This document shows, one piece after another, positions 13,888 through 55,906 of a stretch of 64,000 bases of DNA (position 1 is its first letter; each line of letters starts with the position of its first letter). The stretch spans positions 1 through 64,000 of the forward strand of contig JEMX01000021.1 of the NCBI GenBank assembly GCA_000585055.1, written 5' to 3'. The notes below the pieces were generated by a model. The model worked only from the letters and a program-made list of their open reading frames with translations, ran no database searches and was not told where the DNA came from. The position numbers and the translations under genes are program-made. This DNA comes from Candidatus Accumulibacter appositus. GTDB taxonomy: Bacteria > Pseudomonadota > Gammaproteobacteria > Burkholderiales > Rhodocyclaceae.

Positions 13888-16800
<2,913 letters not shown>

Positions 16801-21228: not shown

Positions 21229-22767
21229 ATGACCTTCATGAACTGGAGCCGGCATTTCGTGACCGGCATCGAAGTCGTCGATCGCGAGCATCGGCGTCTG
21301 GTCGATCTGATCAACGAGGCCGCACCGCTGCTCTCGCGTAGCGAACCGGTCCTGGCCGCTGACCTTGAAGAGCTGCTCGATCAGCTCTCGACCTACGCGC
21401 AGACGCATTTTCGCGACGAGGAACGGCTGATGGGCGCGGCCGGCATGGACCCTGCGTGCGTCGCCCAGCAGGTGCTGGCGCATCGCGCCTTCGTCGAAGA
21501 GCTGGCCACGATGCGTCAGGAAGTCGACGCCAATGGAGAACTCGACGGGCGCCTGCTGTTGCGCTTCCTGGCCAACTGGCTGAGCTTCCACATGCTGGCC
21601 GACGATCAAGTGATGGCCAGGCAGCTGGTGCTGATCGGCGAAGGTCATAGCGCCGCCGAAGCGGCGGCGCGGGTGCGGGAAGCGAAGGAGGACACACCAC
21701 AGGCGGTGCTCACCGAGGCCTTGATCGATCTCTACGGGGTTGTCACGGTGCGCAACCGCACGCTGCAAACGAGCAACGCGCAGCTGCGGGCCGCACGCCG
21801 GGAGTTGGCCGAGCTCAACGCCGACCTCGAAACGCAGATCGAAGCGCGCACCCGCGAACTGACGCAAACCAACCACGAGCTGTTGCGCGAGCAGGCTGAA
21901 CTGCAGCAGGCGATGGAAGCCATCGAGCGCACGCAGAGTCAGTTGTTGCAGTCCGAGAAAATGGCGGCCGTCGGCCAGCTCGCTGCCGGCGTAGCGCACG
22001 AGATCAACAACCCGATCGGCTTCGTCAGTTCGAATCTCGGTTCGCTGCGGACCTACGTCGATGCGCTGCTGGCGCTCATCGACGTCAGCGCAGCGGCGCT
22101 TGCCGCCTTGCCGGCCGATCATCCGGCGCGACTGGCTGTCGAAGGGGCCTGGCAGGAGGCTGAAGTGGACTTCCTGCGCGAGGACATCCCGTCCCTGATC
22201 GGCGAGTCGGCGGAAGGCTTGGCACGGGTGCGCAAGATCGTCGCCGACCTCAAGGATTTTTCGCACGCCGATGAAGGCGCGTGGCAGGAGGCCGACCTCA
22301 ATAGCGGCCTGGAGAGTACCCTGAACGTGATCTGGAACGAACTCAAGTACAAGGCCAAGGTGGTGCGCGAACTTGGCGAGTTGCCGGCCGTGCGTTGTAT
22401 TCCGGCGCAGCTCAACCAGGTGTTCATGAACCTGCTGGTCAATGCCGGGCAGGCCATCGAGAAGGAGGGGACGATTACCCTGCGCAGCGGCTACGAAGCC
22501 CAGGAGGTGTGGGTCGAGATCGAGGACAGCGGTGGCGGCATGCCGCCCGAAGTTCAAAAACGCATCTTCGAGCCCTTTTTCACCACCAAAGCGGTCGGCA
22601 AGGGGACCGGTCTCGGTTTGCCGATCTCCTGGGAGATCATCCAGCGCCACGCCGGAACGATCAGCGTGGACAGCGAGCCGGGGCGGGGCACTTGCTTTTG
22701 CATTCGTCTGCCGGTCGCCGGGCCGCCGCCGCTTGATCCGCCGCTTCACACCGAGGTCAGCTCTTGA
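21229..22767 (+). CDS. Bacteriohemerythrin-histidine kinase fusion
   Basis: A 512-residue soluble kinase. Residues 1-135 are a hemerythrin domain with ligands His21, His60, Glu64, His85, His121 and Asp126; the His normally found four residues before His85 is Gln81. Residues about 165-245 form a coiled coil, followed by HisKA with His257 in GVAHEINNPIGF and HATPase (DSGGGMP, GTGLGLPI). Hemerythrins bind oxygen at a di-iron site, so this is likely an oxygen or redox sensing kinase. ATG 21229 was chosen because the domain begins there, with AGAGAG upstream; the longer frame overlaps the previous gene. The stop overlaps the TTG of the next gene. Confidence 0.9.
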   Translation: MTFMNWSRHFVTGIEVVDREHRRLVDLINEAAPLLSRSEPVLAADLEELLDQLSTYAQTHFRDEERLMGAAGMDPACVAQQVLAHRAFVEELATMRQEVDANGELDGRLLLRFLANWLSFHMLADDQVMARQLVLIGEGHSAAEAAARVREAKEDTPQAVLTEALIDLYGVVTVRNRTLQTSNAQLRAARRELAELNADLETQIEARTRELTQTNHELLREQAELQQAMEAIERTQSQLLQSEKMAAVGQLAAGVAHEINNPIGFVSSNLGSLRTYVDALLALIDVSAAALAALPADHPARLAVEGAWQEAEVDFLREDIPSLIGESAEGLARVRKIVADLKDFSHADEGAWQEADLNSGLESTLNVIWNELKYKAKVVRELGELPAVRCIPAQLNQVFMNLLVNAGQAIEKEGTITLRSGYEAQEVWVEIEDSGGGMPPEVQKRIFEPFFTTKAVGKGTGLGLPISWEIIQRHAGTISVDSEPGRGTCFCIRLPVAGPPPLDPPLHTEVSS

Positions 22768-25238
22768 GTGGCGAAGCGTCATCGGCGTCGATCTACGACG
22801 CCCTTGGGCTGATCGTCATTCGCGTCGATGCCGAACTCAAGGTCTGGTATGTCAATAGCTTTGGCCTGCGCCTGCTCGGCTACAGTCGGCTGGGACAGGT
22901 TTTCCGGCGGCCATTGCGCGAGCTGCTCGGCGCCGATTTACTGCACTCTCCCGAGTTCCTGGCCGAGCTTCGCGACATTGGCGGTCGCGGCGGCGTGCGG
23001 CAGGTGGAAGCGCCCTTGACGACCAGCGACGGGCGGCAACTGTGGATCTCATGGTCGATCGAGGAGCGCGTCGGCGCCGATACCGTCCTGGCACCGATCT
23101 TCTTGATTGGCACCGATGTCACGCGCGTGCACCGGAGCCTGGAGTCGGCGCTGCTCTTTCGTGACATTGCGCAGAACACGCCCCTGTCGGTGATCATCAC
23201 CGACGCCGAGCGCAACATCCTGTTCGCCAATGCGGCGGTGCTGGCGATGACCGGCTACGCGGCCGAGGACGTGATCGGCCGCAAGCCGCAGATGTTCAGC
23301 TCCGGGCTGACGCCGGCGTCCACCTACCAGGAAATGTGGGCCGCTCTTGGCAGCGGCAGCAGCTGGAGCGGCGAGTTGACCAATCAGCGCAAGGACGGCA
23401 GCGTGTTTACCGAGCGCCTGACCATCTCGCCGATCACCGACCAGGAAGGACAGCTCAGCTTCTTCTTCGCCATCGGTGAGGATTCGACGCGGCAACGCGA
23501 GCTGGAAACGCAGCTCGAGGCCTTCACCAGCACCGACGCCCTGACCGGGCTGCGCAACCGCATCGGTTTCTTCGCCGAATTGACGCGACTGCTGAAACAG
23601 GTGGCCGATGCCAACACCGGAATCGCCGTCGTGCACATCGATATCGACGACTTCGACAGCATCAATCGCTCGCTCGGCCACGAACAGGGGGACCGCCTGC
23701 TGGTCGATATCGGCAAGCGGCTCGCCGATACCGTACGCGAAAGCGATGTCGTCGCCCGCCTCGGCAGTGACGAATTCGGCTTGCTGCTGATTGTTCCGGA
23801 CCTCTCGTCGGGGGACGACTACGAGGAGATCTCGGGACGGCTGCGGGCGGCGCTGCGGCCGGCCTTCAGCATTGGCGAGCGCAGCATCGAAGTCGTTGCG
23901 TCGATCGGCTTCGCCTCGTTTCCTGCCGACGGCAACGAGCCCGGCGAACTGCTGGCGCGCGCCACGGGTGCCACGCAAATAGCCAAGCGCGATGGCGGCG
24001 ATGGCGCCGCCCGCTTCGACCGGGGGCTGAACACGGACGATCTGCAGCGCCGCGAGTTGCTCGGCGAACTGCGCCAGGTCGTCGAAAACCGGCAACTGCT
24101 GCTGCACTACCAGCCGCAGTTGAGTCTGCAGACCGGCGCCTTGATCGGTCTCGAGGCGCTGCTGCGCTGGCAGCATCCGGAGAAGGGACTGATCCCGCCG
24201 GGGCGCTTCATTCCCTTGGCGGAAGAGAGCGGGCTGATCATCGCCATCGGCGAATGGGTCCTCGGCGAGGCCTGCCGCCAGATGCGCGCCTGGCTTGACG
24301 CCGGCTTTCCGCCGATCAAGGTGGCGGTCAACCTGTCGGCGCGCCATTTCCACCAGGCGAACCTCTACCAGAACGTCAGTGACGCCCTCGCCAGGCACCA
24401 GATCGACCCGCGAACGCTCGAACTTGAGATCACCGAGGGGGCAATGATGAACGACGTGGCCTTGTCCGCCCGCGCCAGCGAACGCCTCAAGGAAATCGGC
24501 GTACGCCTGTCGCTCGACGACTTCGGCACCGGCTATTCCTCGCTCGCCTACCTGTCACGTTTCCCGATCGACGTGGTCAAGATCGACCAGTCGTTTGTCC
24601 GCGACATCACCAGCAATCCGGCCAACGCCGCGATCACCCAGGCGATCATCGCCATGTCGCACAAACTCGGCAAGATCACCCTGGCCGAAGGCGTCGAAAG
24701 CGAGGAGCAGATGCACTATCTGCGGCGCAACGATTGTGACGAAATGCAGGGCTACTTCTTCTCGCGACCCCTTCCCGCCGACGAGATCGCCACCCTGCGC
24801 AGCGCCGGCAAGCGTCTGCCGCTCGGCAGCGGCAAGGAGGATGTCCTGCCGACGGTGCTGCTGGTCGACGACGAAGCGAGCATTCTGTCGGCACTCAGGC
24901 GCCTCCTGCGGCGCGAGGGCTACCGGGTGCTGCTTGCCGATAGTGCCGAGGCGGCTTTTGCCGTCCTGGCGCGCGAAGCCGTCGAAGTGATCGTTTCCGA
25001 CCAGCGCATGCCGGTGATGACCGGCACCGAACTCCTCGCCCGCGTCAAGACCCTCTATCCGCGCACCGTGCGCCTGGTCCTTTCCGGGTATTCGGAAATC
25101 ACCGCCGTCACCGACGCCATCAACAAGGGCTCGATCCACAGGTACCTCAGCAAACCCTGGGACGACGAGCACCTGAAGAGCGAGATTCGCGACGCTTTTC
25201 GTACCTGGAAGGAACGCTTCGGGAAGGGGGAAGGCTGA
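22764..25238 (+). CDS. PAS-PAS-GGDEF(degenerate)-EAL-REC c-di-GMP phosphodiesterase
   Basis: An 824-residue cytosolic protein. Two PAS domains (about 10-125 and 130-250), a GGDEF domain whose motif is GSDEF (334-338), an EAL domain with EAL at 464-466 plus DDFGTGYSSL, KIDQSFV, AEGVE and MQGYFFSRP, and a C-terminal receiver (about 695-820) with phosphoacceptor Asp746 and a KPW lysine site. The EAL set looks complete, the cyclase site doubtful, so it should hydrolyse c-di-GMP. The receiver probably accepts phosphate from the upstream kinases. The start is TTG 22764, overlapping the kinase TGA (TTGA) with GAGG upstream; no ATG is near. Confidence 0.9.
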   Translation: MSGEASSASIYDALGLIVIRVDAELKVWYVNSFGLRLLGYSRLGQVFRRPLRELLGADLLHSPEFLAELRDIGGRGGVRQVEAPLTTSDGRQLWISWSIEERVGADTVLAPIFLIGTDVTRVHRSLESALLFRDIAQNTPLSVIITDAERNILFANAAVLAMTGYAAEDVIGRKPQMFSSGLTPASTYQEMWAALGSGSSWSGELTNQRKDGSVFTERLTISPITDQEGQLSFFFAIGEDSTRQRELETQLEAFTSTDALTGLRNRIGFFAELTRLLKQVADANTGIAVVHIDIDDFDSINRSLGHEQGDRLLVDIGKRLADTVRESDVVARLGSDEFGLLLIVPDLSSGDDYEEISGRLRAALRPAFSIGERSIEVVASIGFASFPADGNEPGELLARATGATQIAKRDGGDGAARFDRGLNTDDLQRRELLGELRQVVENRQLLLHYQPQLSLQTGALIGLEALLRWQHPEKGLIPPGRFIPLAEESGLIIAIGEWVLGEACRQMRAWLDAGFPPIKVAVNLSARHFHQANLYQNVSDALARHQIDPRTLELEITEGAMMNDVALSARASERLKEIGVRLSLDDFGTGYSSLAYLSRFPIDVVKIDQSFVRDITSNPANAAITQAIIAMSHKLGKITLAEGVESEEQMHYLRRNDCDEMQGYFFSRPLPADEIATLRSAGKRLPLGSGKEDVLPTVLLVDDEASILSALRRLLRREGYRVLLADSAEAAFAVLAREAVEVIVSDQRMPVMTGTELLARVKTLYPRTVRLVLSGYSEITAVTDAINKGSIHRYLSKPWDDEHLKSEIRDAFRTWKERFGKGEG

Positions 25239-31229: not shown

Positions 31230-32345
31230 TCAGTGCAGCGGCCAGGCGCTGACCGGCCAGCCATGCGGTGCGTCGAGCGGTAGCTGCGTGCGCGTGCGCA
31301 GGGCGGTATCGGTAAGGGCGTAGCCCCAGTTGATCAGCCGCCCCTGTTCCTTGGCGGTAAAGGCCTTGAGGCGGGTCGGGATGTGCTGCAGCGCGGCGGT
31401 GAGCGGGTTGTCGCTGGCCAGGGCATCGACATCGTCGTAGTCATCGATGGCGGTGCCGATTCCCCAGTAGGCGCCGTGCCGAAGCCCGGCCTTGAAGTCG
31501 CCAATCAGCGATCGCTTGCGCAGCGCCCGCGTCTGCTCGATCAGGATGTCGCGCACCCGGCCGAGTTGCAGCAGGTCGTCTTCGAAGGGTGACTCGTCGA
31601 TCTCGAAAGGCGCGCCGGCGTCGCTGACCAGAACGATGTCGACCTTGCCGAGCAGGGCTTCGAGGCCCATGTTGTCGTAGATGCCGCCGTCGGCGAGCAC
31701 GATCCGGCGGCGCAGCTTGTCGAGGTTCGCCAGCTCGCGCTGTGGTTGCTCCCAGGCGCTGGGCTCGGTCTTCAGCAGCACCGGCGAGAAGATCGGCGGG
31801 AAGGCGCTGGAGGCGGCGACTGCCTCGGCAAGAGGCACCTCGGTGTTGTAAGAAACGCCCAGGACGTAGTCCGCGATGTAGTCCTGACGAAAACGGAAGC
31901 TGCGCCCAGTCTGCATGTTCGTGGCGTAGAAGATGAAGCGCGGCGCGTGGTCCTCGGCGGGGGTTGCCAGCTCGCGCAGCAGGGTTTCGCCGAACAGGTC
32001 GCGCGCGTAGCGCCGGGCGAGAACCTCGCCGGAAGACCGGAACGGCGTCAGGTGGCCGAGCAGGGCGGTGCTGACGTCGATAGTCTGATTGCAGAAGTCG
32101 CGCACCGGTTGCGCGACGACTTCCTCGAAGTTGCGGGCCTGATCGTCGACAAAGTTGAGTTGCCGCCAGCGGTGCGCCAGTACCCCGGCCACAATCGAGC
32201 CGCCGGAAACGCTGGTGATGCGCGTCAGGCGGCGCAGCAGTCCGCCCTCGTTGAGCCGCCAGAGACTGCCGAGACCGAAAAGCGTCGCCCGAAATCCGCC
32301 GCCGGACAACGCCAGACCGATACTCGGCTGTTGGTCAGTGTTCAT
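31230..32345 (-). CDS. Patatin-like phospholipase
   Basis: A 371-residue patatin-family lipid acyl hydrolase. The oxyanion loop SGGGFRA is at residues 14-20, the nucleophile Ser47 lies in SVSGGS (Ser replaces the usual first Gly of GxSxG), and the catalytic Asp219 in ADGGIYDNMG completes the dyad. There is no signal peptide. ATG 32345 has a perfect AGGAGG six bases upstream; the longer frame to 32543 is not supported. The gene stands divergent to an outer-membrane barrel gene and beside the caspase/CHAT block. Patatins are frequent membrane-damaging effectors in bacterial immunity, but lipid turnover is equally possible. Confidence 0.88.
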   Translation of the reverse strand: MNTDQQPSIGLALSGGGFRATLFGLGSLWRLNEGGLLRRLTRITSVSGGSIVAGVLAHRWRQLNFVDDQARNFEEVVAQPVRDFCNQTIDVSTALLGHLTPFRSSGEVLARRYARDLFGETLLRELATPAEDHAPRFIFYATNMQTGRSFRFRQDYIADYVLGVSYNTEVPLAEAVAASSAFPPIFSPVLLKTEPSAWEQPQRELANLDKLRRRIVLADGGIYDNMGLEALLGKVDIVLVSDAGAPFEIDESPFEDDLLQLGRVRDILIEQTRALRKRSLIGDFKAGLRHGAYWGIGTAIDDYDDVDALASDNPLTAALQHIPTRLKAFTAKEQGRLINWGYALTDTALRTRTQLPLDAPHGWPVSAWPLH

Positions 32346-32674
32346 CAGAGTCCTCCTGGAGATTGCCGCAATCACTGGTCTGCGGGCGTCCGCGCCGCGC
32401 TTGCCGACCGGTTTCAGTGGCAGCCGGCAGCCGTGGTCAAACCTGCGCTGTGCGATTGGCGGCGAGCGACGAATCGGGCCAGCACCCCTGACGAAACGCC
32501 TGCCAAGGCCGTGGGCGGCGCTTGTTGCCGGCGCGCGACACATCTCGCCGCGGATTCCGGAATTCCCTGAAAATCGCGCCCAGGCCGCCGATCTTGCGAG
32601 CTATGCTATCACCGTTAGTGTGGCCTTTGCCATTTTGGATTTGTCCACGTGTCGTGACCCTTTGGAGAGAACCC
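32346..32674. other. Divergent intergenic region, no gene seen
   Basis: This 329-base gap lies between the patatin gene (minus) and the barrel gene (plus). I see no credible ORF. It must hold both promoters; a TTTGGAGAG ribosome site for the barrel gene is at its right edge. I see no strong hairpin or repeat. Confidence 0.6.
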
Positions 32675-33340
32675 GTGATCAAGAATCAGAGTCTGCTGAT
32701 GGCCTTGCTGGCAACGGCCCTCAGCGTCGGTGCGCACGCCCAGGAGACGCAGCTCCAGCCCGTAGCAGGCTGGTATGGAGCGGCCAATGCCGGTCAATCG
32801 AAGGTCAAGATCGACGACCTCGATCTGGCGAGTCTGGACCTTACCGGAAGTGAAGCGAAGGACGAGACGGATACGGCGTGGCGTTTGGCCATCGGCTACC
32901 AGTTCAACCCCTACTTCGCCGTCGAAGGCGGCTATGTGGACTTCGGAAAATTCAAGCAGGAAGCGGTGATCAGCGCACCGGTAAGCGGGAGCTTTTCCGG
33001 CGACATCGAGGCCAGGGGCTGGTTCGTCGACGCCGTCGGCAGCTATCCGCTCGGCGCCAAGGTGGCCGTTCTCGGCCGACTCGGAACCGTACGCAGTACG
33101 ACCAAGACCAGTTTTTCGACGGGCGGCGGCTTGAGCGGGGCTCTGGCCGCTGCGGGCATCGATGCCAGCCCCAGCCAATCGGAGTGGAACTGGCGCTACG
33201 GCCTCGGGCTGCAGTTCGACTTCACGCGCAGCCTCGCCCTGCGGCTTGAATACGACCAGACCAGAAACCTGGGCAAGGAGGACACGACCGGCGAAGGAAA
33301 TATCGACGTCTGGTCGCTGGGAGTGGTGCTGCGCTTTTGA
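32675..33340 (+). CDS. Outer-membrane beta-barrel protein
   Basis: A 221-residue exported protein. Residues 1-24 are a signal peptide (LLMALLATALSVGAHA, cleavage before QE). The mature chain is an eight-strand OmpA/OprF-type barrel: GWYGAANAGQSKV, WRLAIGYQFNPYFAVEGGYVDFG, GWFVDAVGSYPLG, WRYGLGLQFDFT, LALRLEYDQT, and a C-terminal VWSLGVVLRF ending in Phe, the barrel-assembly signal. There is no peptidoglycan-binding OmpA domain. The start is GTG 32675 with GGAGAG six bases upstream. It precedes the caspase gene by 150 bases on the same strand. Confidence 0.85.
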   Translation: MIKNQSLLMALLATALSVGAHAQETQLQPVAGWYGAANAGQSKVKIDDLDLASLDLTGSEAKDETDTAWRLAIGYQFNPYFAVEGGYVDFGKFKQEAVISAPVSGSFSGDIEARGWFVDAVGSYPLGAKVAVLGRLGTVRSTTKTSFSTGGGLSGALAAAGIDASPSQSEWNWRYGLGLQFDFTRSLALRLEYDQTRNLGKEDTTGEGNIDVWSLGVVLRF

Positions 33341-33403
33341 ATCCCCGGCTTCGCATGCGTCGGGCCGACAAGCTGCTTACCAAGGCGAGAGCGATGGCGA
33401 GGC

Positions 33404-33431
33404 TTGTTATTGCCTTCGCGCTTGCTAGACT
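33404..33431 (+). promoter_or_regulatory. Possible promoter of the caspase gene
   Basis: TTGTTA at 33404-33409 and TAGACT at 33426-33431 are 16 bases apart, 60 bases before ATG 33491. The match is only moderate, but the gap between the barrel gene and the caspase gene offers nothing better. Confidence 0.3.
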
Positions 33432-33490
33432 GAGGGCCGAAGTTGGCAGTTCGCGATCAACCCTCAACGATCAATTGACAGGAGGCACTC

Positions 33491-34333
33491 ATGAGCAAGC
33501 GCGCGCTTTGTATGGGCATCAACAACTACCCCGGAACGCACATGGATCTCAATGGTTGCGTGAATGATGCCAACGACTGGGCTGCCGAGCTTGCCGGGCG
33601 CGGCTTCGCGGTCAGCAAGCTGATCGACCAGCAGGCGACCAAGGCGGCCATGTTCAACGCCATCCAGTCGCTGATCAGCGGCGGCGTCAGTGGCGACGTG
33701 TTGGTGATTACCTATTCCGGGCACGGAACCTATGTCCCGGACACCAACGGCGATGAGATCGATGGTCTCGACGAGGCGCTTTGTCCCTACGATATCCAGA
33801 CCGGCGGTGGGCCGCTGGTCGACGACGAGATCAACACCCTGTTTGCGGCGCGCAAGGCGGGCGTTCGTCTGTTGTTGATTTCCGACAGTTGCCACTCGGG
33901 CACCGTGACTCGCGCTGCCGCCGCCGACCCTGACGCCGAGGATGCGCCGCGCGCTCGCTTCCTGCCGATGGGTAACTGGCTGGCGGCCGACAAGTTGCCG
34001 CATGGCATCAGCGGCCAACCGCTGACGACGGTGGCGGTGAGTTCGGGAGGCTCCCCGTTTGCCGGCGCGCTGTCACGAATGATGGGCGATCTGCTGCTCG
34101 CCGGCTGCAAGGAGGGGCCGAACAACTTCAGCTACGACGCGCGCATCGCTGGCCGCCCCTGTGGAGCGTTCACCTATTACGCCTTGAAGACGCTCAAACA
34201 GCTGCCGGCCAACGCTACTTACGCACAATGGCACGCGGCCATCAATCCGGGCTATCTGCCGTCGGCATCGTATCCGCAGAGCCCGCAGATTTTTGGCAGC
34301 ACGGAAGCGCGCAATCGCCAGATCTTCACCTGA
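33491..34333 (+). CDS. Caspase-family (C14, metacaspase-like) protease
   Basis: A 280-residue cytosolic caspase-fold protease. His78 in TYSGHGTY and Cys134 in SDSCHSG form the catalytic dyad; DLNGCVNDA near residue 19 and DEALCPYD near 95 are metacaspase-type flanking motifs. There is no signal peptide, pro-domain or fused partner domain, so the gene product is a bare protease of near-minimal length. AGGAGG lies just upstream of ATG 33491. The gene is followed after 171 bases by the giant hydrolase-CHAT gene on the same strand. It could process that protein or serve as a separate effector; neither is shown by sequence. Confidence 0.92.
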   Translation: MSKRALCMGINNYPGTHMDLNGCVNDANDWAAELAGRGFAVSKLIDQQATKAAMFNAIQSLISGGVSGDVLVITYSGHGTYVPDTNGDEIDGLDEALCPYDIQTGGGPLVDDEINTLFAARKAGVRLLLISDSCHSGTVTRAAAADPDAEDAPRARFLPMGNWLAADKLPHGISGQPLTTVAVSSGGSPFAGALSRMMGDLLLAGCKEGPNNFSYDARIAGRPCGAFTYYALKTLKQLPANATYAQWHAAINPGYLPSASYPQSPQIFGSTEARNRQIFT

Positions 34334-34382
34334 GGGCGGCGTCGCCGGCGTCGCGGGGGGCCGGTGGGCTGGCCCCGGCGGG

Positions 34383-34455
34383 CCTAACGGTCATGACAGG
34401 CAAAGACACGCCAAATCATTAATGTGGAAGTCGCGTAGGCGACTTTCACGGTAAG
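34383..34455. repeat. Short dispersed repeat, copy 1
   Basis: The stretch opens with CTAACGGTCATGACA and closes with GCGACTTTCACGGTAAG; between them GTCGC/GCGAC forms a small hairpin. The same opening and closing blocks recur at 51693-51822, and the opening block again at 55820. This copy separates the caspase gene from the giant CHAT gene. Confidence 0.6.
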
Positions 34456-34504
34456 CGAGCGACGACGCCGTAGCTGGCGTGGCAAGAACTCGATGGAGGC
34501 GACG

Positions 34505-37500
34505 ATGGCTGACAGCACTGTTCTCAACTTCACTGGCCGCCAGAGCGATCAGGCGCGATTGCCGGCTCTGCTGCAGACCGTTCGTCGCTCGGCGGGCGAG
34601 GCGGATGACCCGTTCCTGCCGGTCGGCTACCTGCGGACGCGGGCGAGCTTTGAGGTCGGTTCTGCGGTGCGTGCTGGCGGGGCCAGCGCCAGTGCGCAGC
34701 AGTACGCGGCGCAGGACGATGAGGTGCTGGTCATTGAACTCGCCGACGCTGGCGTTCTGATCACCTCGGCCAGCAAACTCAAGGCCTCGCTGGAGCGCAG
34801 CCGGCCCGATCTGATCGGCAGTGACGGCGAGATCCTGTTCGATCAGCTGCGCAGCGATGGGGCGGCGACGCGCGGGCTGCTCGGCGACGCGATCGGCGGC
34901 CTGGTCAGCAAGGTCTTTGCGCTGGCGGTGGGGGCCGCCAGCGATGAAATCATCGAGGCGGCCAAGAGCAGGCTTGGCAAGTTGCGCAAGGGTGCCGGTG
35001 AGGTGGCCGAGCTGGGGGTCAGCGGGCTCGGTACCAAGGCCTTGATGTGGGCGATCGAGTCGCGGCTGGGTCGGCCGACCGGCGTTTACTGCTGGGACGG
35101 CGCAGGCAGCGTCGCCGAGGCACAGGACAGCGAGGCCCTGGCGCGGGCGCAGCGCGAGCTGCACCGCGCCGCGGCCGAGCGCCTGCCGGTGCTGCTCTTC
35201 ATCCACGGCACGGGGTCCAATTCCTTGGGCAGCTTTGGTGAGCTGCAGCTTGATGAGCGCGATCTGTGGAGTGTGTTGCAGCGCCGTTTTCGCGGCGGGA
35301 TCTATACCTACGAGCACCGCACGCTCTCCGAGAGCCCGATCGAGAACGCCCTGGAGCTGCTGGCGGTGCTGCCCGACGGCATTCAGCTCAATCTGGTCTC
35401 GCACTCGCGCGGCGGTCTGGTTGCCGACCTGCTCTGTCTGCAGGACTTCGAGCGGCTGATCGAGCAGTTCAAGGCTGATCTGCCGGGTACCGGCGATGCC
35501 TACGAGAGCGAAGCTGCCGCGCAGAGCCTACGTGGCGAACTCGACTCGGCGCACGCCGAGCAGCGTGCGCAGCTGCGCCAGCTGGCCAGCGTGCTGGCGG
35601 CCAAGAAGCTGGTCGTGCAGCGCTACGTGCGCGTCGCCAGTCCGGCGCAGGGGACGCGGCTGGCCAGCGGCAACCTGGATCTCTTTCTTTCCGGGATGCT
35701 GACCTTGATCGGGCAGGTGCCGTTCTTTTTCGGTAGTCCTTTCTATTCGGCTTTCAAGCGGGTGGTTCTCGAAATTGCCCACAAGCGGACCAATGCCCAC
35801 TTGGTGCCTGGTATTGAAGCGATGTTGCCGGACTCGCCGATGGCGCGCCTGCTGCGCGACGCACCGGTACGCGCCGGAATCGAGATGGCGGTGATCGCCG
35901 GCGACATCGAGGGCGGCAATCTGCTCCGGCGCCTCGGCGTCCTGCTCACCGACTATTTGCTTTTCGACAACGTCGACAACGACCTGGTCGTTGATAGCGA
36001 CTCAATGTTCGCCGGCATCGCGCCGCAGGCGCGGGCGAGGGCGCTCTTCGATCGCGGTGCGGAGGTCTCGCATTTCCGCTACTTCAGGAACATCGACACG
36101 CGCCTTGCGCTGCGTGACTGGCTGGTGGCCGGCGAGGTCTTGCCGCTGGCGGCTTTCCAGCCGCTGCCGGGTCCCTTCTTCGACGGCGAGCTGAGCACGC
36201 GCGAGGCGGGTGAAGGCCGCTCGCGGGGTGGCTCGCGGACGCCGCCGACGCGGCCTGCCGATTTGCCGGTGGTCGTCGTGCTGCCTGGGGTGATGGGCTC
36301 GCACCTGTCGGTGAATGGCAAGGACCGGGTGTGGTTCGACCCGCTCGACATCGCGACGGGTGGTCTCGGCAAGATTGCCTGGGAGCAGTCAGGCGTCGAG
36401 GCCGAGAAGCTGTTCGACATGTTCTACAGCGAGCTCTGTGATTTTCTCGCGGAAAGTCACCGCGTCGAGCGCTTCGCCTACGACTGGCGACAACCGCTCG
36501 ATGTGCTCGCCGAGCGCTTCGCGGAATTCCTCGACCGCTTGTTGCGCGAGACCACGCAGCCGGTGCGCCTGCTCGCGCACAGCATGGGCGGCCTGGTGGT
36601 ACGCGCCAGTATTCACAAGCGCCGCGCGGTGATCGACGCGCTGATGGCGCGCGATGGTGCGCGCCTGGTGATGCTCGGGACGCCCAATCAGGGCGCCTAT
36701 TCGATGGTCGAGAACCTGCTCGGCAAGGGCGATACGCTGCGCTCCTTGGTACGCCTCGATCTTGCGCACGACATGCGGGAAGTACTGGAGATCGTCGCCG
36801 GTTTTCGGGGCGCGCTGCAGTTGCTGCCCAAGCGCGGTTTCGTCGATTGTTTTCAGGGGCAGCCCGAAGGCGGTGATGACCATCAGGATTTCTGGCAAGC
36901 CGGGACCTGGGCCAGCTACCGCAAGAAGGTCTTCGATTTCTGGTTTGGCAATGGCAATTCGGCGACACCGAACCAGCAGCAGCTCGATGCGGCGAGCTGG
37001 CTGTGGACGCAGGACGGCGAGGAGACGCCGGCACTGCCTGCGGCCTATGCCAGCAAGGCGATCTATGTCTTTGGCGTGGCGCGCAATACGCCGTGCGGAA
37101 TTCGCGAGGTGAAAGGGCGCCTGAAAATGGTCGGCACCAGCCAGGGTGACGGTACCGTCACCTGGGCGTCGGGGCGTATCGGCAATGTCGGCAGCTACTA
37201 CTACCTGCCGGCCAAGCATGGCGATCTGCCCTCGACCCGCGAGTATTTCCCGGCGCTCGGCGAGTTGCTGAGCAGCGGTGTGAGCGGTGGCTTGCTGAGC
37301 AGTCCGCCGCTGGTGCGCGGCGAAGAGCAGCCGCTACCGGTGACCTACGATGCCGGACCGCCGACCCTCGACGGCGGCGAAGCGGTGGCGCGCGGCCTGC
37401 TTGGCGGTTCGCCGCGCAGTCGCGTCGCGGCGCGCCCGAAACGTCGCCTGGAAGTCAAGGTCAAGGCCATGGACCTGCGTTTCCTGACCCAACCGGTCCT

Positions 37501-40500
37501 GCTCGGTCATTACGAGCAGGACCCGATCGCCGGTGCCGAGGCGCTGATCGATCGCGAGTTGCTCGGCGGCGACCTCACGCAGCGCTACAACCTCGGGCTT
37601 TACGCCGGCCCGCGTGGCGCGGCGAGCGTCGTCCTGCGCGTTCCCAATGAGCAGGAGCGCCGCCGTGGCAGCCTCACCGGCGCGATCGTCACCGGCCTCG
37701 GCGCCTACGACGGTAATCTCAGTGTCGGCGATCTGACCGAAGCGGTCCGTGCCGGCGTCCTGCGCTACCTGCTGCAGGTGATCGACGTGCTCGGCAAGGA
37801 CGAACGCGAACTGCCGCTGGCCGCGCTACTGCTCGGCTACAACTCTTCGGCGAACCTGTCCGTGGCGGCGTCGGTCGAGGCACTGCTGCGCGGCGTCATG
37901 GAAGCCAACGCGCGCTTCTACGAGACCACCCGACTCGACATTCGCGTCACTCGTCTCGATATCGTCGAGCTCTATCAGGATACGGCGATCACCGCCGTCT
38001 ACGCGCTGCGGCGCATGCCCGAGCGGCTTGCCGAACTGAGCCGGCGCTATGACGTGGCGCTGGTCTGCCAGCCGGAGCTCGAACAGGGCGAAGGCTTGCG
38101 CCGTCGCCTGTTCGATAGCGGCAATCCGAGTTACTGGCCACGACTGATCGTCACCGACGCCGATCGGCACGATCAGGGCCCGGCTTCCTGCCCGCCGAGC
38201 AATGACGCCAAGGCCGGCGACGCTGGCCAGGCGGGAGCGCTGCAGGCTTCGCCGCGGCAGCGTACGGCGATTGCCGAGCGCCTGCGTTTTCTCTACGTTG
38301 GCCAGCGTGCACGCGCCGAGTCGGTGGTTCACCAGCGCCAGCCCGGCCTGATCGAGCAGCTCGTGCGCCAGCAGATCCAGATGCCGGTTTGGCGCGAGGA
38401 CTTCGGGCGCGTGCTCTTCCAGCTGATGGTGCCGCACGACTTCAAGGACGCGGCACGACAGCTCGAAAGCATTGTCCTGGTCGTCGATGACTACACCGCC
38501 AACCTGCCATGGGAGTTGATGTTCGCGGACAATCAGCGCGGCGCCGGCGAGAAACTGCCGCTTGCCGTGCGCACTCCGGTAGTGCGCCAGCTCGCGGCCA
38601 TGCAGTTCCGTCGCCAGGTGCGGCAGGGACTGGAGCGCAAGGCCTTTGTCGTCGGCAATCCGTCGGTCGAAGGTTTTGCCGCGGCCTTTCCGGATCCCCG
38701 GCAGCCGGATGCGCTCGACCCACCACCGCTGCCGAACGCCGAGAGCGAGGCTTACCAGGTGGCAGCCATCCTGCAGGGTCTTGCCTACCAGGTGGTCGCC
38801 GAGATCGGCTGCGACCGCAGCGCTTCCGACGTGCTGACCCGGCTTTACCAGCAGCCGTACCGGTTGCTGCATATCGCGGCGCACGGCATTTTCGACCAGC
38901 AGCACGTCGATGGCCGCCGCCGCTCGGGGGTGGTTCTCTCCGACGGACTGTTGATTACCGCCGCCGAGATCCGGGCCATGGAAAGCGTGCCCGAACTCGT
39001 TTTCCTGAGCTGTTGCCATCTGGGCAAGGTGGATACAGGCAGCGGGGACGAAGGCCGGAAGCAGGCTGCCGAGCGCACGCTGCTTGATGGCAACCTGTTG
39101 GCGGCCAGCGTCGCGCGCGAGTTGATCAACATCGGCGTGCGCTGCGTGGTGGTTGCTGGCTGGGCGGTGGATGACAAGGGCGCGATGATTTTCGGCAAGG
39201 CCTTTTACGAGAGCCTGCTGCTTGCCGGCCAGCCTTTCGGGCAGGCGGTTTTCGAAGGGCGGCGGGCGGTCTGGCAAGCCAATCGCGAAGACATCACCTG
39301 GGGTGCCTATCAGGCCTACGGCGAACCGGGCTGGCTGGCCGAGCCGCGTCTGTCGGGACAGGCCGCGACTGCGGTCGCTTACGTCTCGCCCGACGAATTG
39401 CTCGACGAGCTATCCAGCCGCCGTGCGGCGCTGTCACGTGCCAGCGAGCGGCAGACGACGCGCGAGCTTGAGGCGCAGCTGAGCAGCATCGCGACCTTGC
39501 TCGACGAGCGCTGTCCGGCCGGCTGGTTGCGGCTACCGGCCGTGCAGTCGGCGCTGGCGAGCGTCTGGGCTGACCTCGGTGACTTCGCCAGGGCGCGGAC
39601 GGCTTACCTCGACGCCATCCAGTCTGAGGACGGCGACGGGCAGGTGCCGATACGCGACATCGAGCAGTTGGCGAATATCGAGGCGCGCATGGGTGAGAAG
39701 GCGGAAAGCGACGCCAGCGACGAACGGGATGCAAGCGACGAAAGGGATGCAAGCGAGAACAAGGACGGCAAGGCGCTGCAGTTGATCGACAGCGCGCTGG
39801 AGCGTCTGCGCAGTCTCGACGCTCTGGTTTCGCACCCGGCCGGCGCAGCACCGGTCGGCCGGGTCAATGCTGAGCGTTGCGCACTGCGCGGCAGTGCTGC
39901 CAAGCGCAAGGCCAACGTGTTTGCACGCCGGGCGCTTGCTGCCGACGTCGGCACGGGCAGTGCTAGCGAAAAAAACCGGGCAGCCAGTAAGGCGGCGCTT
40001 GTTCAGATGGAGCAGGCCTTGCGCGACAGCGCCGGTTTTTACGGGCAAGGCGAGGGACGGCCGGGCGATGCGGCTTTCCGGTCGTACAACGCGCTCAACC
40101 GGCTGGCAATCGAGGCGCTGTTGACGCCGCTCGACGGCGGGCGGCAAGAGGAGGACAAGGTGGCCGTCGAGGAGGGTATTGCCCTGGCGCGTTACTGCCG
40201 CTCCGCGGCCCGCGACGCGTACGCACACAGTGCCGATTTCTGGGACGCCATGCGCGAGCCTGAGGCGATGCTCGTCGAGTGTCTGCTCGATGGCGTACTC
40301 ATGCGCTCGGGAGCCGTCGGCCAGCTGGCGTTCGACGAAGTGGCGCGCGCTTACGACGAGACGCTGTCCACGCTTTGCCTCAAACCGAAGCAAGTCGACT
40401 CGGTGCTGGCGCAGATTTGTCTGTTGTCGAGATTTTGCGACGCTCGCGCGCTCAGTCAAGGTGACGGCGACGGCGGCTGGCAGCTGGCGGCCGGCCGGCT

Positions 40501-40648
40501 GATCAATCTCGCCGAACGCATTCGTCCCGGGGCATGCCAGCGAAGCGATCGGCCGCGGGGCGCGGCGCCTGCCGGGGAGGTGGCGACAGGGTCGTCTGCC
40601 AGCACGGCGGCCAGTAAAGGGCGTCAAGGCACACCGCGCAAACGCTAA
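34505..40648 (+). CDS. Giant protein: two alpha/beta hydrolases fused to a CHAT protease
   Basis: 2047 residues, no signal peptide. Residues about 225-480: a first alpha/beta hydrolase with FIHGTGSNS near 233 and nucleophile Ser301 in SHSRGG. About 590-930: a second, LCAT-like hydrolase (VLPGVMGSHL near 595, Ser693 in AHSMGG, MLGTPNQGAYSM, and a GDGTV motif supplying the acid). About 1090-1290: linker with mixed alpha/beta folds. About 1290-1620: CHAT protease with LPWELMF, His1460 in AAHG and Cys1504 in LSCCHLG. The last 400 residues are helical, TPR-like, with a small SDERDA repeat. ATG 34505 follows GGAGG by five bases and is preferred to 34493. CHAT proteases cleave partners in type III-E CRISPR and other systems; here the obvious targets are the fused lipases. 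Confidence 0.88.
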   Translation: MADSTVLNFTGRQSDQARLPALLQTVRRSAGEADDPFLPVGYLRTRASFEVGSAVRAGGASASAQQYAAQDDEVLVIELADAGVLITSASKLKASLERSRPDLIGSDGEILFDQLRSDGAATRGLLGDAIGGLVSKVFALAVGAASDEIIEAAKSRLGKLRKGAGEVAELGVSGLGTKALMWAIESRLGRPTGVYCWDGAGSVAEAQDSEALARAQRELHRAAAERLPVLLFIHGTGSNSLGSFGELQLDERDLWSVLQRRFRGGIYTYEHRTLSESPIENALELLAVLPDGIQLNLVSHSRGGLVADLLCLQDFERLIEQFKADLPGTGDAYESEAAAQSLRGELDSAHAEQRAQLRQLASVLAAKKLVVQRYVRVASPAQGTRLASGNLDLFLSGMLTLIGQVPFFFGSPFYSAFKRVVLEIAHKRTNAHLVPGIEAMLPDSPMARLLRDAPVRAGIEMAVIAGDIEGGNLLRRLGVLLTDYLLFDNVDNDLVVDSDSMFAGIAPQARARALFDRGAEVSHFRYFRNIDTRLALRDWLVAGEVLPLAAFQPLPGPFFDGELSTREAGEGRSRGGSRTPPTRPADLPVVVVLPGVMGSHLSVNGKDRVWFDPLDIATGGLGKIAWEQSGVEAEKLFDMFYSELCDFLAESHRVERFAYDWRQPLDVLAERFAEFLDRLLRETTQPVRLLAHSMGGLVVRASIHKRRAVIDALMARDGARLVMLGTPNQGAYSMVENLLGKGDTLRSLVRLDLAHDMREVLEIVAGFRGALQLLPKRGFVDCFQGQPEGGDDHQDFWQAGTWASYRKKVFDFWFGNGNSATPNQQQLDAASWLWTQDGEETPALPAAYASKAIYVFGVARNTPCGIREVKGRLKMVGTSQGDGTVTWASGRIGNVGSYYYLPAKHGDLPSTREYFPALGELLSSGVSGGLLSSPPLVRGEEQPLPVTYDAGPPTLDGGEAVARGLLGGSPRSRVAARPKRRLEVKVKAMDLRFLTQPVLLGHYEQDPIAGAEALIDRELLGGDLTQRYNLGLYAGPRGAASVVLRVPNEQERRRGSLTGAIVTGLGAYDGNLSVGDLTEAVRAGVLRYLLQVIDVLGKDERELPLAALLLGYNSSANLSVAASVEALLRGVMEANARFYETTRLDIRVTRLDIVELYQDTAITAVYALRRMPERLAELSRRYDVALVCQPELEQGEGLRRRLFDSGNPSYWPRLIVTDADRHDQGPASCPPSNDAKAGDAGQAGALQASPRQRTAIAERLRFLYVGQRARAESVVHQRQPGLIEQLVRQQIQMPVWREDFGRVLFQLMVPHDFKDAARQLESIVLVVDDYTANLPWELMFADNQRGAGEKLPLAVRTPVVRQLAAMQFRRQVRQGLERKAFVVGNPSVEGFAAAFPDPRQPDALDPPPLPNAESEAYQVAAILQGLAYQVVAEIGCDRSASDVLTRLYQQPYRLLHIAAHGIFDQQHVDGRRRSGVVLSDGLLITAAEIRAMESVPELVFLSCCHLGKVDTGSGDEGRKQAAERTLLDGNLLAASVARELINIGVRCVVVAGWAVDDKGAMIFGKAFYESLLLAGQPFGQAVFEGRRAVWQANREDITWGAYQAYGEPGWLAEPRLSGQAATAVAYVSPDELLDELSSRRAALSRASERQTTRELEAQLSSIATLLDERCPAGWLRLPAVQSALASVWADLGDFARARTAYLDAIQSEDGDGQVPIRDIEQLANIEARMGEKAESDASDERDASDERDASENKDGKALQLIDSALERLRSLDALVSHPAGAAPVGRVNAERCALRGSAAKRKANVFARRALAADVGTGSASEKNRAASKAALVQMEQALRDSAGFYGQGEGRPGDAAFRSYNALNRLAIEALLTPLDGGRQEEDKVAVEEGIALARYCRSAARDAYAHSADFWDAMREPEAMLVECLLDGVLMRSGAVGQLAFDEVARAYDETLSTLCLKPKQVDSVLAQICLLSRFCDARALSQGDGDGGWQLAAGRLINLAERIRPGACQRSDRPRGAAPAGEVATGSSASTAASKGRQGTPRKR
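39716..39751 (+). repeat. In-frame 18-bp tandem repeat inside the CHAT gene
   Basis: Two 18-base copies that differ at one base encode SDERDA twice, followed by a diverged SENKDG. It lies in the linker before the C-terminal helical region. The unit keeps the frame, so copy number could vary without breaking the protein. Confidence 0.7.
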
Positions 40649-40789
40649 GCGGGTGTTGCACGGCTCTTGCGCCGCTGTCAGGTTTGCCGGAAATTTCATC
40701 AGGAATGGAGCACGGAGAGGGCGGCGGCTTCCTGTGCGCGACCTGAAAACCCGCTTTATTCCATCAACCATCGTTCAGAAAGGAAAGCC

Positions 40790-41233
40790 ATGTTCCAGAA
40801 GCTCGCAGCTTGCCTGTCAGTCCTGCTCTTGGTCAGCGTGCTCACGGCTTGCGCCGGCGCCAGCCGGCAGCCGGGAGAAATGGAGATGCGTACCGGCGTC
40901 GTCGAACAGATTATCGATGTCGACTTGCCGAGCAATCATCATCCCGGCGTCGGTGCGGTGGTCGGTGGCCTCGCCGGTCTGGGGGTCGGCAGCCTGATCG
41001 GTGCGGGCACCGGTCGCGACGTGGCCATGATCGCCGGAAGCATTGGCGGCGCGCTCGCCGGCAATGAAATCCAGAGGAAATATGAGCGCCCTGTTCCGGG
41101 GCAGCAAATCGTTGTTCGTACCGCCAGCGGCGTGCTGATTTCGGTCACCCAGGCCGGCGTCGCGGGTTTGCGCAAGGGACAACTGGTCTATGTCGAGGGT
41201 CATGGCGACGGTGCGCGCGTCGTCGCGCGTTGA
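40790..41233 (+). CDS. Glycine-zipper outer-membrane lipoprotein (SlyB/17-kDa antigen type)
   Basis: A 147-residue lipoprotein. The signal peptide ends in the lipobox LTAC with Cys21 as the lipidated residue. A glycine-zipper stretch (VGAVVGGLAGLGVGSLIGAG and IAGSIGGALAGNEIQ, about 57-100) is typical of SlyB/Rickettsia 17-kDa surface antigens. A C-terminal small beta domain (GQQIVVRTASGVLISV, GQLVYVEG) follows. It likely sits in the outer membrane and stabilises the envelope. ATG 40790 has AGGAAA upstream. Its stop overlaps the TTG of the next gene (TTGA). Confidence 0.88.
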   Translation: MFQKLAACLSVLLLVSVLTACAGASRQPGEMEMRTGVVEQIIDVDLPSNHHPGVGAVVGGLAGLGVGSLIGAGTGRDVAMIAGSIGGALAGNEIQRKYERPVPGQQIVVRTASGVLISVTQAGVAGLRKGQLVYVEGHGDGARVVAR

Positions 41234-42855
41234 ATTGCGGCCGCCAGCCGGGGCAGAATGGGCAGCTGATCGACGTCAGTGAGGTCTACGCCGAGTACAT
41301 CCGGCCGGCGCTGGAGGTGGCCGGGATGGAAGTCTTCGGGGCCGACGATGAGCAGCGCCCCGGCGCCATTCGTGCCGACCTCTTCCAGGAACTGCTGCTC
41401 GCCGAGCGCCAGGCGTTCTCCGGCAGCTATCGCAGCTGGGCGCAGCGCATGGACGTCGCGCACCAGAAGGACTGTCCCGGCGACCTGCTGGTGCTGGCCG
41501 ACGAGGCGCCGATGCGCGCGCTGCACCGCGAAGCGAGGCGCGCCGCCGGCAAGGTCTTGCTCAAGCGCAGGCAGTATCAGCTGGCGCTCGAGCAGTTCGA
41601 GCTGGCGTTGGCCATCGACGCTGACGACAGCTTCAGCCGCGAGAAGAAAGCGCTCTGCCTGGGTCGCCTGGGCCGCTTCACGGAGGCGCGCGAGTGGCTA
41701 CGGCAGCTGATCGAGGGCTATCCTCGCGATCCTGCATGCTGGGCGCTGCTCGGCCATGTCGAGAAGGAAAGCTGGCGGGCCGGTTGGCGACAGCCCGGGC
41801 GGACACCGGCGCAGATGCACGCCGCCGCCAGCCACGAAAATAGGGCGCTCGGCGAGGCCATCGAAGCTTATCGCCAGGCTTTCGTCGCCGCTCCGGCCGA
41901 TCATCACTCTGGGGTCAAGGCGCTGACCCTGCAAGTGCTGCGCCAGCATTGTCGCGGCGAGAGCAGCCAGACCATGATCGAGGCGTTGATCGGCGGCGTG
42001 CGCTGGTCCTGCCTGAGCGCCCGGGAGCGTGACGGCAAGGACTATGGGGCGCACGCCAGCTACGCCGAACTCTGTCTGTTGATCGATCCGCTGCCGAGCG
42101 TTCACCAAGCCTTTGGGAATATGGTGGCAGCGGCCAGCGGTGACTGCTTCGCGCTCGATTCAACGCGGCAGACGCTGCAGCTGCTGCGCGACATCGATTT
42201 CCGGCCCGTCGAGACGGCGACCGCGCTGAGCATCGTCGAAGGCGGCATCGAGCGCAGCCGTGTGCCGTTCGAGCCCCGCCAGGTGTGGCTCTTCAGCGGG
42301 CACATGATTGACGCCGCTGGTCGTGAGCCGCCGCGCTTTCCTGCTGCCAAGGAGGCGCTGGCCGCCGCGAAGATCGCCGAGGCTCTCGATGCGCTCGGTG
42401 CGGGGGACGGTGATCTGGCGCTAGCACAGGCCGCCAGCGGCGGCGACCTGTTGTTTCTGGAAGCCTGTCAGGCACGCGGCATTCGCCTGCAGGTGATGCT
42501 GCCTTTCGAGAGCGCGGAGTTCATTGTGCGCTCGGTGCTGCCGGCGAGTAACGGCGAGCACTGGCGGCAGCGCTACCTGACGCTGACCAATGCGCTTGCC
42601 GAGCAGCCGCGGATCATGCCGGCGGAACTCGGTCGGCTGCCGAAAGACGTGTGCGGCAAGGCGGCGAATGCTTTCGAGCGCTGCAATCTGTGGCTGCTGT
42701 ATACGGCGCTCGCCTGGGGCATCGACAAGCTGCGCTTTGTCTGTCTGTGGAATGGCGGTGGTGGCGACGGTCCCGGAGGGACCGCGCACATGTACGCTGA
42801 AGTCAAGCGTCGTAGCGGACGGGTGACCTGGCTCGATACGCGGAAGTTGTGGTGA
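41230..42855 (+). CDS. TPR protein resembling DUF4071 proteins, probably deleted at the front
   Basis: 541 residues from TTG 41230. Its first part (QLIDVSEVYAEYIRPALEVAGMEVFGADDEQ) resembles the start of DUF4071-type proteins, but the usual preceding motif (a short MPFG strand) and about 100 residues of the nucleotide-deoxyribosyltransferase-like half after LFQELLLAE seem missing; the text jumps to the later segment GDLLVLADEAPMRALHREA. TPR-like helices run through about 110-210 and a basic-acidic C-terminal domain (DLLFLEACQARGIRLQVMLPFESAEF, LRFVCLWNGGGGDGPGG) follows. The comparison is from memory of the family. Start and function are uncertain; it may be a decayed member. Convergent with the DJ-1 gene. 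Confidence 0.65.
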   Translation: MNCGRQPGQNGQLIDVSEVYAEYIRPALEVAGMEVFGADDEQRPGAIRADLFQELLLAERQAFSGSYRSWAQRMDVAHQKDCPGDLLVLADEAPMRALHREARRAAGKVLLKRRQYQLALEQFELALAIDADDSFSREKKALCLGRLGRFTEAREWLRQLIEGYPRDPACWALLGHVEKESWRAGWRQPGRTPAQMHAAASHENRALGEAIEAYRQAFVAAPADHHSGVKALTLQVLRQHCRGESSQTMIEALIGGVRWSCLSARERDGKDYGAHASYAELCLLIDPLPSVHQAFGNMVAAASGDCFALDSTRQTLQLLRDIDFRPVETATALSIVEGGIERSRVPFEPRQVWLFSGHMIDAAGREPPRFPAAKEALAAAKIAEALDALGAGDGDLALAQAASGGDLLFLEACQARGIRLQVMLPFESAEFIVRSVLPASNGEHWRQRYLTLTNALAEQPRIMPAELGRLPKDVCGKAANAFERCNLWLLYTALAWGIDKLRFVCLWNGGGGDGPGGTAHMYAEVKRRSGRVTWLDTRKLW

Positions 42856-55870: not shown

Positions 55871-55906
55871 CCCTCTCACTTGCAGTGCGCACTCCGGCTT
55901 GCACAG

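Follow-up and report, generated by a model that had tools for sequence, protein, structure and literature searches.

A conserved caspase gene and hydrolase-CHAT giant gene in Candidatus Accumulibacter as a putative envelope-attacking effector pair

Introduction

TPR-S systems, said to have been set out by Burroughs and Aravind in J Bacteriol in 2020, and type IV Thoeris, in which, as Rousset reportedly described in 2025, a TIR protein activates a caspase, are among the systems that most resemble a gene pair found in a 64,000-nucleotide stretch of DNA (hereafter the window) from a Candidatus Accumulibacter assembly of 218 contigs and 4.95 Mb. The pair consists of a caspase gene and, downstream of it, the gene of a giant protein that fuses two alpha/beta hydrolases with a CHAT protease. 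As in TPR-S systems, a TPR-S protein (PF20308, over the Pfam cut-off) adjoins the pair; unlike them, it stands with a caspase and a two-hydrolase CHAT giant, and the window's copy is damaged. Type IV Thoeris unites TIR and caspase in one pathway, and both occur at the slot upstream of the giant in related loci, but there TIR replaces the caspase (five loci). In the window itself no TIR gene adjoins the pair, none being found over the cut-off among its neighbors.

In the consulted part of their study, Kaur and colleagues describe caspase-bearing VMAP systems (MoxR-vWA ternary systems) as always having an alpha/beta-hydrolase neighbor, and suggest joint action of the two (PMC7159879). A caspase paired with a hydrolase neighbor is present in the window too, and in the related locus L107 an AAA and a vWA gene stand beside caspase and giant. 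The window's pair, in contrast, has no adjacent AAA-vWA pair, and its giant fuses two hydrolases with CHAT, a domain unmentioned in the main text of that study. Judged by domain content, we read the pair as the VMAP caspase-hydrolase theme in a new form, with the hydrolase doubled and fused to CHAT, itself a caspase-like protease, and to a macro-like domain.

Canu, as far as the consulted text describes it, likewise has a distinct catalytic effector encoded after its caspase gene, but this effector is a metallo-beta-lactamase-type nuclease (PMC12799240) instead of a hydrolase-CHAT giant; no family of such nucleases was found among the scanned neighbors in the window. The giant shares with Craspase TPR-CHAT, in the part of the latter's description consulted, a CHAT protease joined to TPR repeats (PMC9729208), but differs in its two fused hydrolases; next to the giant no gene for a CRISPR effector was recognized, no search having been aimed at CRISPR arrays or gRAMP. 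Finally, M15 or GH19 endolysin-family genes beside giants of related loci recall phage holin-endolysin lysis, from which these loci differ in that there is no holin, whose part a lipase-protease giant would take; the window's pair has no adjacent endolysin gene. No account of the caspase-giant pair was recognized in a literature search, most matches being judged from brief entries.

A sequence-only reading of the window had grouped the pair with patatin, outer-membrane barrel, glycine-zipper lipoprotein and TPR genes as one possible proteolysis-controlled lipid-attack or envelope system. The conserved core of that cluster is the caspase and the giant only.

Results and Discussion

Conservation of the caspase-giant pair

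The caspase and the giant are a conserved, adjacent unit under purifying selection, with hardly any variation at the active sites of its four enzymes. The two genes and the regions of the giant are as follows:

33491..34333, + strand: caspase (C14, metacaspase-type motif DSCHSG around Cys134), core gene; PF00656, E-value 3.2e-20
34493..40648, + strand: giant putative effector of 2051 amino acids, core gene; full-length homologs throughout the genus
35180..36127, + strand: giant residues 230-545, DUF7379 alpha/beta hydrolase, predicted triad S305-D497-H527; PF24096, E-value 1.8e-29
36275..37297, + strand: giant residues 595-935, LCAT/PGAP1-like alpha/beta hydrolase, predicted triad S697-D886-H909; PF02450, E-value 2.3e-5
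37445..38167, + strand: giant residues 985-1225, macro-like (Peptidase_M17_N-like) domain, recognized through homologous segments
38402..39322, + strand: giant residues 1304-1610, CHAT protease, H1464/C1508; PF12770, E-value 9.6e-31
39587..40108, + strand: weak TPR-S repeat region in the C-terminal part of the giant; PF20308, E-value 0.0041, 22.6 bits against a cut-off of 27.6

The caspase-fold protease with intact His78 and Cys134 announced by the sequence-only reading is thus confirmed, both residues being present, as is its giant with two hydrolases and a CHAT protease, the 2047 residues given there counting from the second Met and the 2051 above from the first.

Used as a query, the giant retrieved Candidatus Accumulibacter records with identities up to 90%. 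In a protein search of the genus it matched 25 of 28 genomes at an E-value ≤0.001, and a close homolog (67-100% identical) occurs in 18 of the 28. Matches were found in 62 of 199 genomes of the family sample (28 of 68 genera) at the threshold used, and in 11 of 369 genomes of the class sample at ≤1e-30, the window's own genome counted. The set for neighborhood analysis comprised 81 giant loci: the window, the loci from the genus search, L032 and L033 from a named-genome scan, and 52 loci from the family and class searches, the fragments and weak partial matches of which were excluded. Loci L026-L031 and L034 were left out because they lie on the same contigs as loci already in the set, and L058 because its giant is only a fragment, which is still included in the genus tally. 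Association counts were made with our own profiles and open reading frame (ORF) calls.

An upstream region of at least 900 bp, taken as readable, was available for 73 of the 81 loci. In 41 of these a caspase lies less than 500 bp upstream of the giant on the same strand, with a median gap of 62 bp between the two ORFs, which bears out the association of caspase and CHAT-hydrolase giant that the sequence-only reading had proposed. The same slot holds TIR in five loci, a SLOG-like gene in one, GH19 in one and none of the scored classes in 25; among the latter the caspase is further upstream in L047 and L144 and downstream in L135. Our profile detected 45 caspase ORFs in 905,627 bp of flanking DNA, 41 of them at the giant's upstream slot. 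Among close Accumulibacter homologs the arrangement is nearly constant, with a caspase in 16 of 17 loci with readable upstream and a TPR-S gene within 1,809 bp in 13 of 14 with readable downstream, L042 being the exception in both counts.

Pairwise ratios of nonsynonymous to synonymous substitution rates (dN/dS) between the window and four relatives are 0.08-0.14 for the caspase and 0.17-0.27 for the whole giant; values this low indicate that the genes are not chance ORFs. Active sites were aligned in 46 caspase ORFs and 75 giants. His78, Asp132 and Cys134 of the caspase are invariant (46/46), as are H1464 and C1508 of CHAT (75/75). In hydrolase 1, D497 and H527 are present in all 75 giants and S305 in 72 (two Gly, one gap); in hydrolase 2, D886 and H909 are again present in all, and S697 in 71 (four Gly). 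The Asp and His of both triads were assigned because of this invariance.

The macro-like domain between hydrolase 2 and CHAT had been overlooked by the sequence-only reading. Peptidase_M17_N, which we take to have a macro-type fold, matches 14 of 38 segments homologous to this domain (best E-value 3.2e-7), and a profile of the 38 segments retrieved one PDB entry, the cytosol aminopeptidase 3jru (5.8e-5); the window's own segment alone gave just one unrelated match (0.068). The dN/dS of this domain is 0.046 and 0.050 against L035 and L037, the nearest fetched relatives, and no other part of the giant is as constrained in those comparisons; the values for the domain against L038 and L043 are 0.124 and 0.216. 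The entire giant had no PDB match at an E-value of 0.01 or better, and among PADLOC defense models it matched only BovA (0.054). Cleavage of basic linkers of the giant by the caspase was considered and found no support: when Arg plus Lys content was compared in nine segments between 41 caspase-paired and 29 unpaired giants, the hydrolase linkers gave p values of 0.19 and 0.48. The macro-CHAT linker gave an uncorrected p of 0.014 (29 against 12 sequences), which is not counted as support.

Apart from the window's caspase, no PF00656 match was found in the 4.95-Mb assembly; Accumulibacter is listed among the metacaspase-richest genera in the consulted part of a survey (PMC4933709). The PADLOC model PDLC02987 matches the window's caspase (E-value 7.2e-14), while it does not match the EACC1-associated caspase type (NF047832, 29.3 bits against a cut-off of 140). 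In one relative a second, longer caspase of 762 amino acids (L041:2202-4490; PF00656, E-value 1.1e-19) is encoded downstream of the operon.

Gene context in related loci

Several relatives of the pair are surrounded by genes of conflict systems. In L107 genes for AAA, VWA_CoxE, TIR-CHAT, caspase, giant and TIR proteins stand in a row. The P-loop motif of the AAA gene in L107, which is MoxR-like, recurs in an AAA-type gene of both L105 and L108; around the window's giant, a motif scan detected no gene with a P-loop up to a distance of 6 kb. L117 comprises TIR-NB-ARC-TPR, caspase, giant, DUF4062-NB-ARC and a DRHyd-like/TPR-S protein. The macro-CHAT part is also matched by 21 plasmid records, of which six were inspected (Azotobacter, Rhizobium, three of Paracoccus and an unannotated one of Ensifer). 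The Azotobacter plasmid giant is near genes for a DNA methyltransferase, an S subunit, a recombinase and transposases. A shorter, hydrolase-less relative on the Rhizobium plasmid, with CHAT and TPR-S over the cut-off and an M17_N-like match below it (E-value 0.0037), sits between two TIR-nSTAND1-WD40 proteins. The Paracoccus plasmid giants are directly preceded by a gene whose product has about 1,080-1,095 amino acids (L150:2033-5317, L153:2098-5343, L155:2033-5317); that of L150, the one scanned, has a solute-binding domain and is possibly a different sensor.

In a FastTree tree of 75 giants, for which the program warns of long branches outside this group, a supported clade of 15 combines different upstream partners: caspase in nine, TIR in five and a SLOG-like gene in one, the TIR label requiring at least three changes on the tree. 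An M15 domain begins 12-114 bp after the giant's stop codon in eight of the 14 members with readable downstream regions (L053, L119, L120, L121, L123, L124, L126 and L128), seven with a caspase upstream and one with TIR; no other M15 match was found among the 81 loci. The four M15 genes scanned against PHROGs match endolysin family phrog_894 (E-values 4.9e-26 to 2.4e-25), and the four scanned against Pfam match Peptidase_M15_3 over the cut-off. A His, Asp, His motif, presumably the zinc ligands, is invariant in all eight proteins. Their N-termini contain no strongly hydrophobic stretch by hydropathy (maximum 1.65 over 12 residues, in L128), several starts being uncertain. Genes for GH19 of endolysin family phrog_181 (E-value about 1e-73) are located downstream of the giant in L148 and upstream in L113. 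A gene for a protein of about 380 amino acids follows three TIR-paired giants (L125:11912-13063, L127:5213-6358, L132:11964-13115); it matches only phrog_30036, of unknown function, and its first part resembles the M15 genes by eye.

Proposed function and alternatives

The best reading of the pair is that of a caspase-licensed suicide or defense effector belonging to the network of STAND, MoxR and TIR conflict systems. The neighbors in relatives (TIR, NB-ARC, AAA with vWA, TPR-S and endolysin-family genes) fit a proteolysis-controlled envelope-attack or immunity system. With the chances about balanced, the caspase and the giant may be an effector pair that attacks the cell's own envelope upon sensed infection or damage; the most likely outcome would be regulated self-destruction through envelope damage, probably directed against phage. 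In most Accumulibacter the trigger would be the neighboring DRHyd-like/TPR-S/SLOG-like protein; other lineages would rely on a component of TIR, SLOG-like, NB-ARC or AAA-vWA type. The trigger would signal probably via a nucleotide or NAD-derived ligand, for which the macro-like and TPR-S-like regions of the giant are possible receivers. The caspase and the giant's CHAT protease would then license the two alpha/beta hydrolases, and these would attack membrane lipids, leading to suicide or growth arrest; in one clade they could also let an endolysin-family wall hydrolase leave the cytoplasm. Beside the observed pairing, conservation and context, the activation order, the lipid substrate and the anti-phage effect are what we infer.

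Several observations weigh against this reading. At the upstream slot 25 of the 73 giants have no gene of any scored class, and in Accumulibacter L042 the giant occurs with neither caspase nor TPR-S. The caspase profile missed the Pfam-recognized gene L041:2202-4490, so that the 45 caspases in the flanks are an undercount. A hydrolase serine is replaced by Gly in a few giants (S305 in two and S697 in four of 75), and lipids are presumed substrates of these hydrolases. Since the hydrolase linkers of caspase-paired giants are not enriched in basic residues, cleavage there by the caspase is unsupported. The DRHyd and SLOG assignments of the putative trigger are weak.

If the reading is true, the pair links caspase-family proteases, lipase effectors and nucleotide-signaling triggers, which are usually treated apart, through a slot where a protease gene and a TIR gene replace one another. 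Accumulibacter forms dense aggregates in wastewater plants, where phage pressure affects phosphorus removal, a setting in which it would make sense for infected cells to die altruistically. The pair also yields clear predictions for gene knockout and active-site mutants.

A more far-reaching possibility, which we put forward tentatively, is a modular host-encoded lysis machine. Here a caspase, TIR or SLOG-like trigger would activate the giant, its two lipase-like domains would break open the inner membrane, and this would, in one clade, release the co-encoded M15 or GH19 endolysin, apparently signal-less, to cut the wall. Such a device would amount to bacterial pyroptosis with lipases in place of gasdermin, borrowing the logic of phage lysis; the Accumulibacter form would do without the endolysin and be controlled by a nucleotide sensor of DRHyd/TPR-S/SLOG type, which would be in the course of being lost in this strain. 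If the endolysin clade works as proposed, it represents a bacterial programmed-lysis device assembled from caspase, lipase and phage-type lysin.

It is likewise possible, if doubtful, that the pair is a stress or developmental module for proteolysis and lipid turnover, for example in envelope remodeling within dense granules, and serves neither immunity nor suicide. Consistent with this are the strong constraint on caspase and giant, the housekeeping-like appearance of most neighbors of many giants, and the chromosomal position in the window's clade, where the DJ-1 and aconitase-like genes (aconitase by inspection) that border the window's operon border it in L035, L037 and L038 as well. Against it, chromosomal neighborhoods differ within the genus: in L043, L046 and L048 the downstream genes resemble, by inspection, ribosomal protein S6 and its usual neighbors, so that the operon sits at different places on the chromosome. 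The patchy occurrence of giants (62/199 family and 11/369 class genomes), the TIR, NB-ARC, AAA-vWA and restriction-modification contexts and the endolysin neighbors also argue for the effector pair proposed above.

The damaged TPR-S gene

The putative trigger gene of the window has the following parts:

41230..42855, + strand: TPR-S protein, damaged, with the remnant of a DRHyd/TIR-like N-terminal domain, TPR-S and a SLOG-like C-terminal domain; PF20308, E-value 3.1e-16
about 41572-41931, + strand: TPR-S domain
about 42286-42852, + strand: SLOG-like C-terminal domain, a weak assignment
41392..41405, + strand: 14-bp repeat at the junction of the deletion, left here as one copy; two copies in L038

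A TPR protein had been noticed by the sequence-only reading and is present (PF20308, 60.3 bits against a cut-off of 27.6); its truncation relative to orthologs had escaped notice. In the genus 12 of 13 downstream TPR-S genes have the full N-terminal domain, the window's being the exception. Compared with L035, L037 and L038 (window positions 41230-41424), it lacks the start region and, in frame, 321 bp (107 codons) of the N-terminal domain. In L038 two copies of the 14-bp repeat are located exactly 321 bp apart, of which the window retains one; in L035 and L037 the second copy is conserved over 10 bp only. The 321-bp loss may be due to an assembly error.

The N-terminal domain of the relatives has weak TIR_2 matches in 14 of 19 members (best E-value 0.0039), and 12 of the 17 PDB entries among the matches listed for its profile are Rcl/DNPH1 deoxynucleoside hydrolases (best 0.0087). 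The Glu of a YELG motif, presumably the catalytic residue of the DRHyd superfamily, is present in the Accumulibacter orthologs and absent from the window copy. For the C-terminal domain weak matches to the SLOG family (YAcAr) were obtained in two of 19 members (best 0.0032), and a PDB search with it found no SLOG protein. Three further TPR-S proteins are encoded in the same assembly (L060-L062; stretches C29, C78 and C25), the C25 stretch also having a CHAT match.

With the neighboring trigger gene damaged, the window's pair either responds to a different trigger or now lacks one of its inputs. That this genome contains the whole locus as a decaying remnant is unlikely. Apart from the deletion and the lost start, an apparently weaker constraint on the remainder of the TPR-S gene points that way, its dN/dS being 0.34-0.42 on the window branch compared with 0.15-0.23 for the sister branch, as do stops or breaks in the giant of several relatives, for example L037 and L047. 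On the window branch, in contrast, dN/dS of the caspase (0.07-0.09) and the giant (0.13-0.16) is unchanged, all of these values being three-point estimates, and both frames are open with intact active sites.

Other genes of the window

Three neighbors of the pair are bystanders:

31230..32543, - strand: patatin, clade-local, divergent strand, likely start Met67; PF01734, E-value 3e-21
32522..33340, + strand: OmpA-like barrel; PF13505, E-value 1.5e-20
40790..41233, + strand: glycine-zipper lipoprotein, clade-local, likely ATG at 40790; PF05433, E-value 2.8e-6

The genes themselves are as the sequence-only reading had named them, each with its Pfam match; their membership in a unit with the pair is not supported by neighborhood counts. 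The association expected there across giant homologs holds for the caspase (41/73) and nearly fails for the patatin (5/81), and of the single proteolysis-controlled envelope system the caspase-giant pair and its fitting context survive while patatin, barrel and lipoprotein drop out. The window's patatin family adjoins the giant, on the opposite strand, in five of 81 loci, all near relatives. The barrel has no homolog in any other fetched locus, a comparison of 31 loci included, and the lipoprotein was detected downstream by profile in two loci besides the window, with a fragment in L037 and a contig-end copy in L009. That the entire 11.6-kb block is one lipid-attack system is therefore highly improbable and largely refuted by these counts, even though the patatin stands beside the pair in four near relatives as well and different patatins are near the giants of L111, L129 and L130.

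The latter patatins are of a different type and on the same strand as the giant, with DRHyd-like/TPR-S genes near by. Among PADLOC defense models the window's patatin has a match with an E-value of 0.0037. Rfam and tRNA searches of the window gave nothing at their thresholds. Its neighbors comprise CheB/CheR, besides the patatin, the barrel and the DJ-1 and aconitase-like genes, and PAS sensor kinases and GGDEF-EAL response proteins are densely encoded around the locus (13888-16800, 17268-21182, 22764-25238 and 55880-59233).

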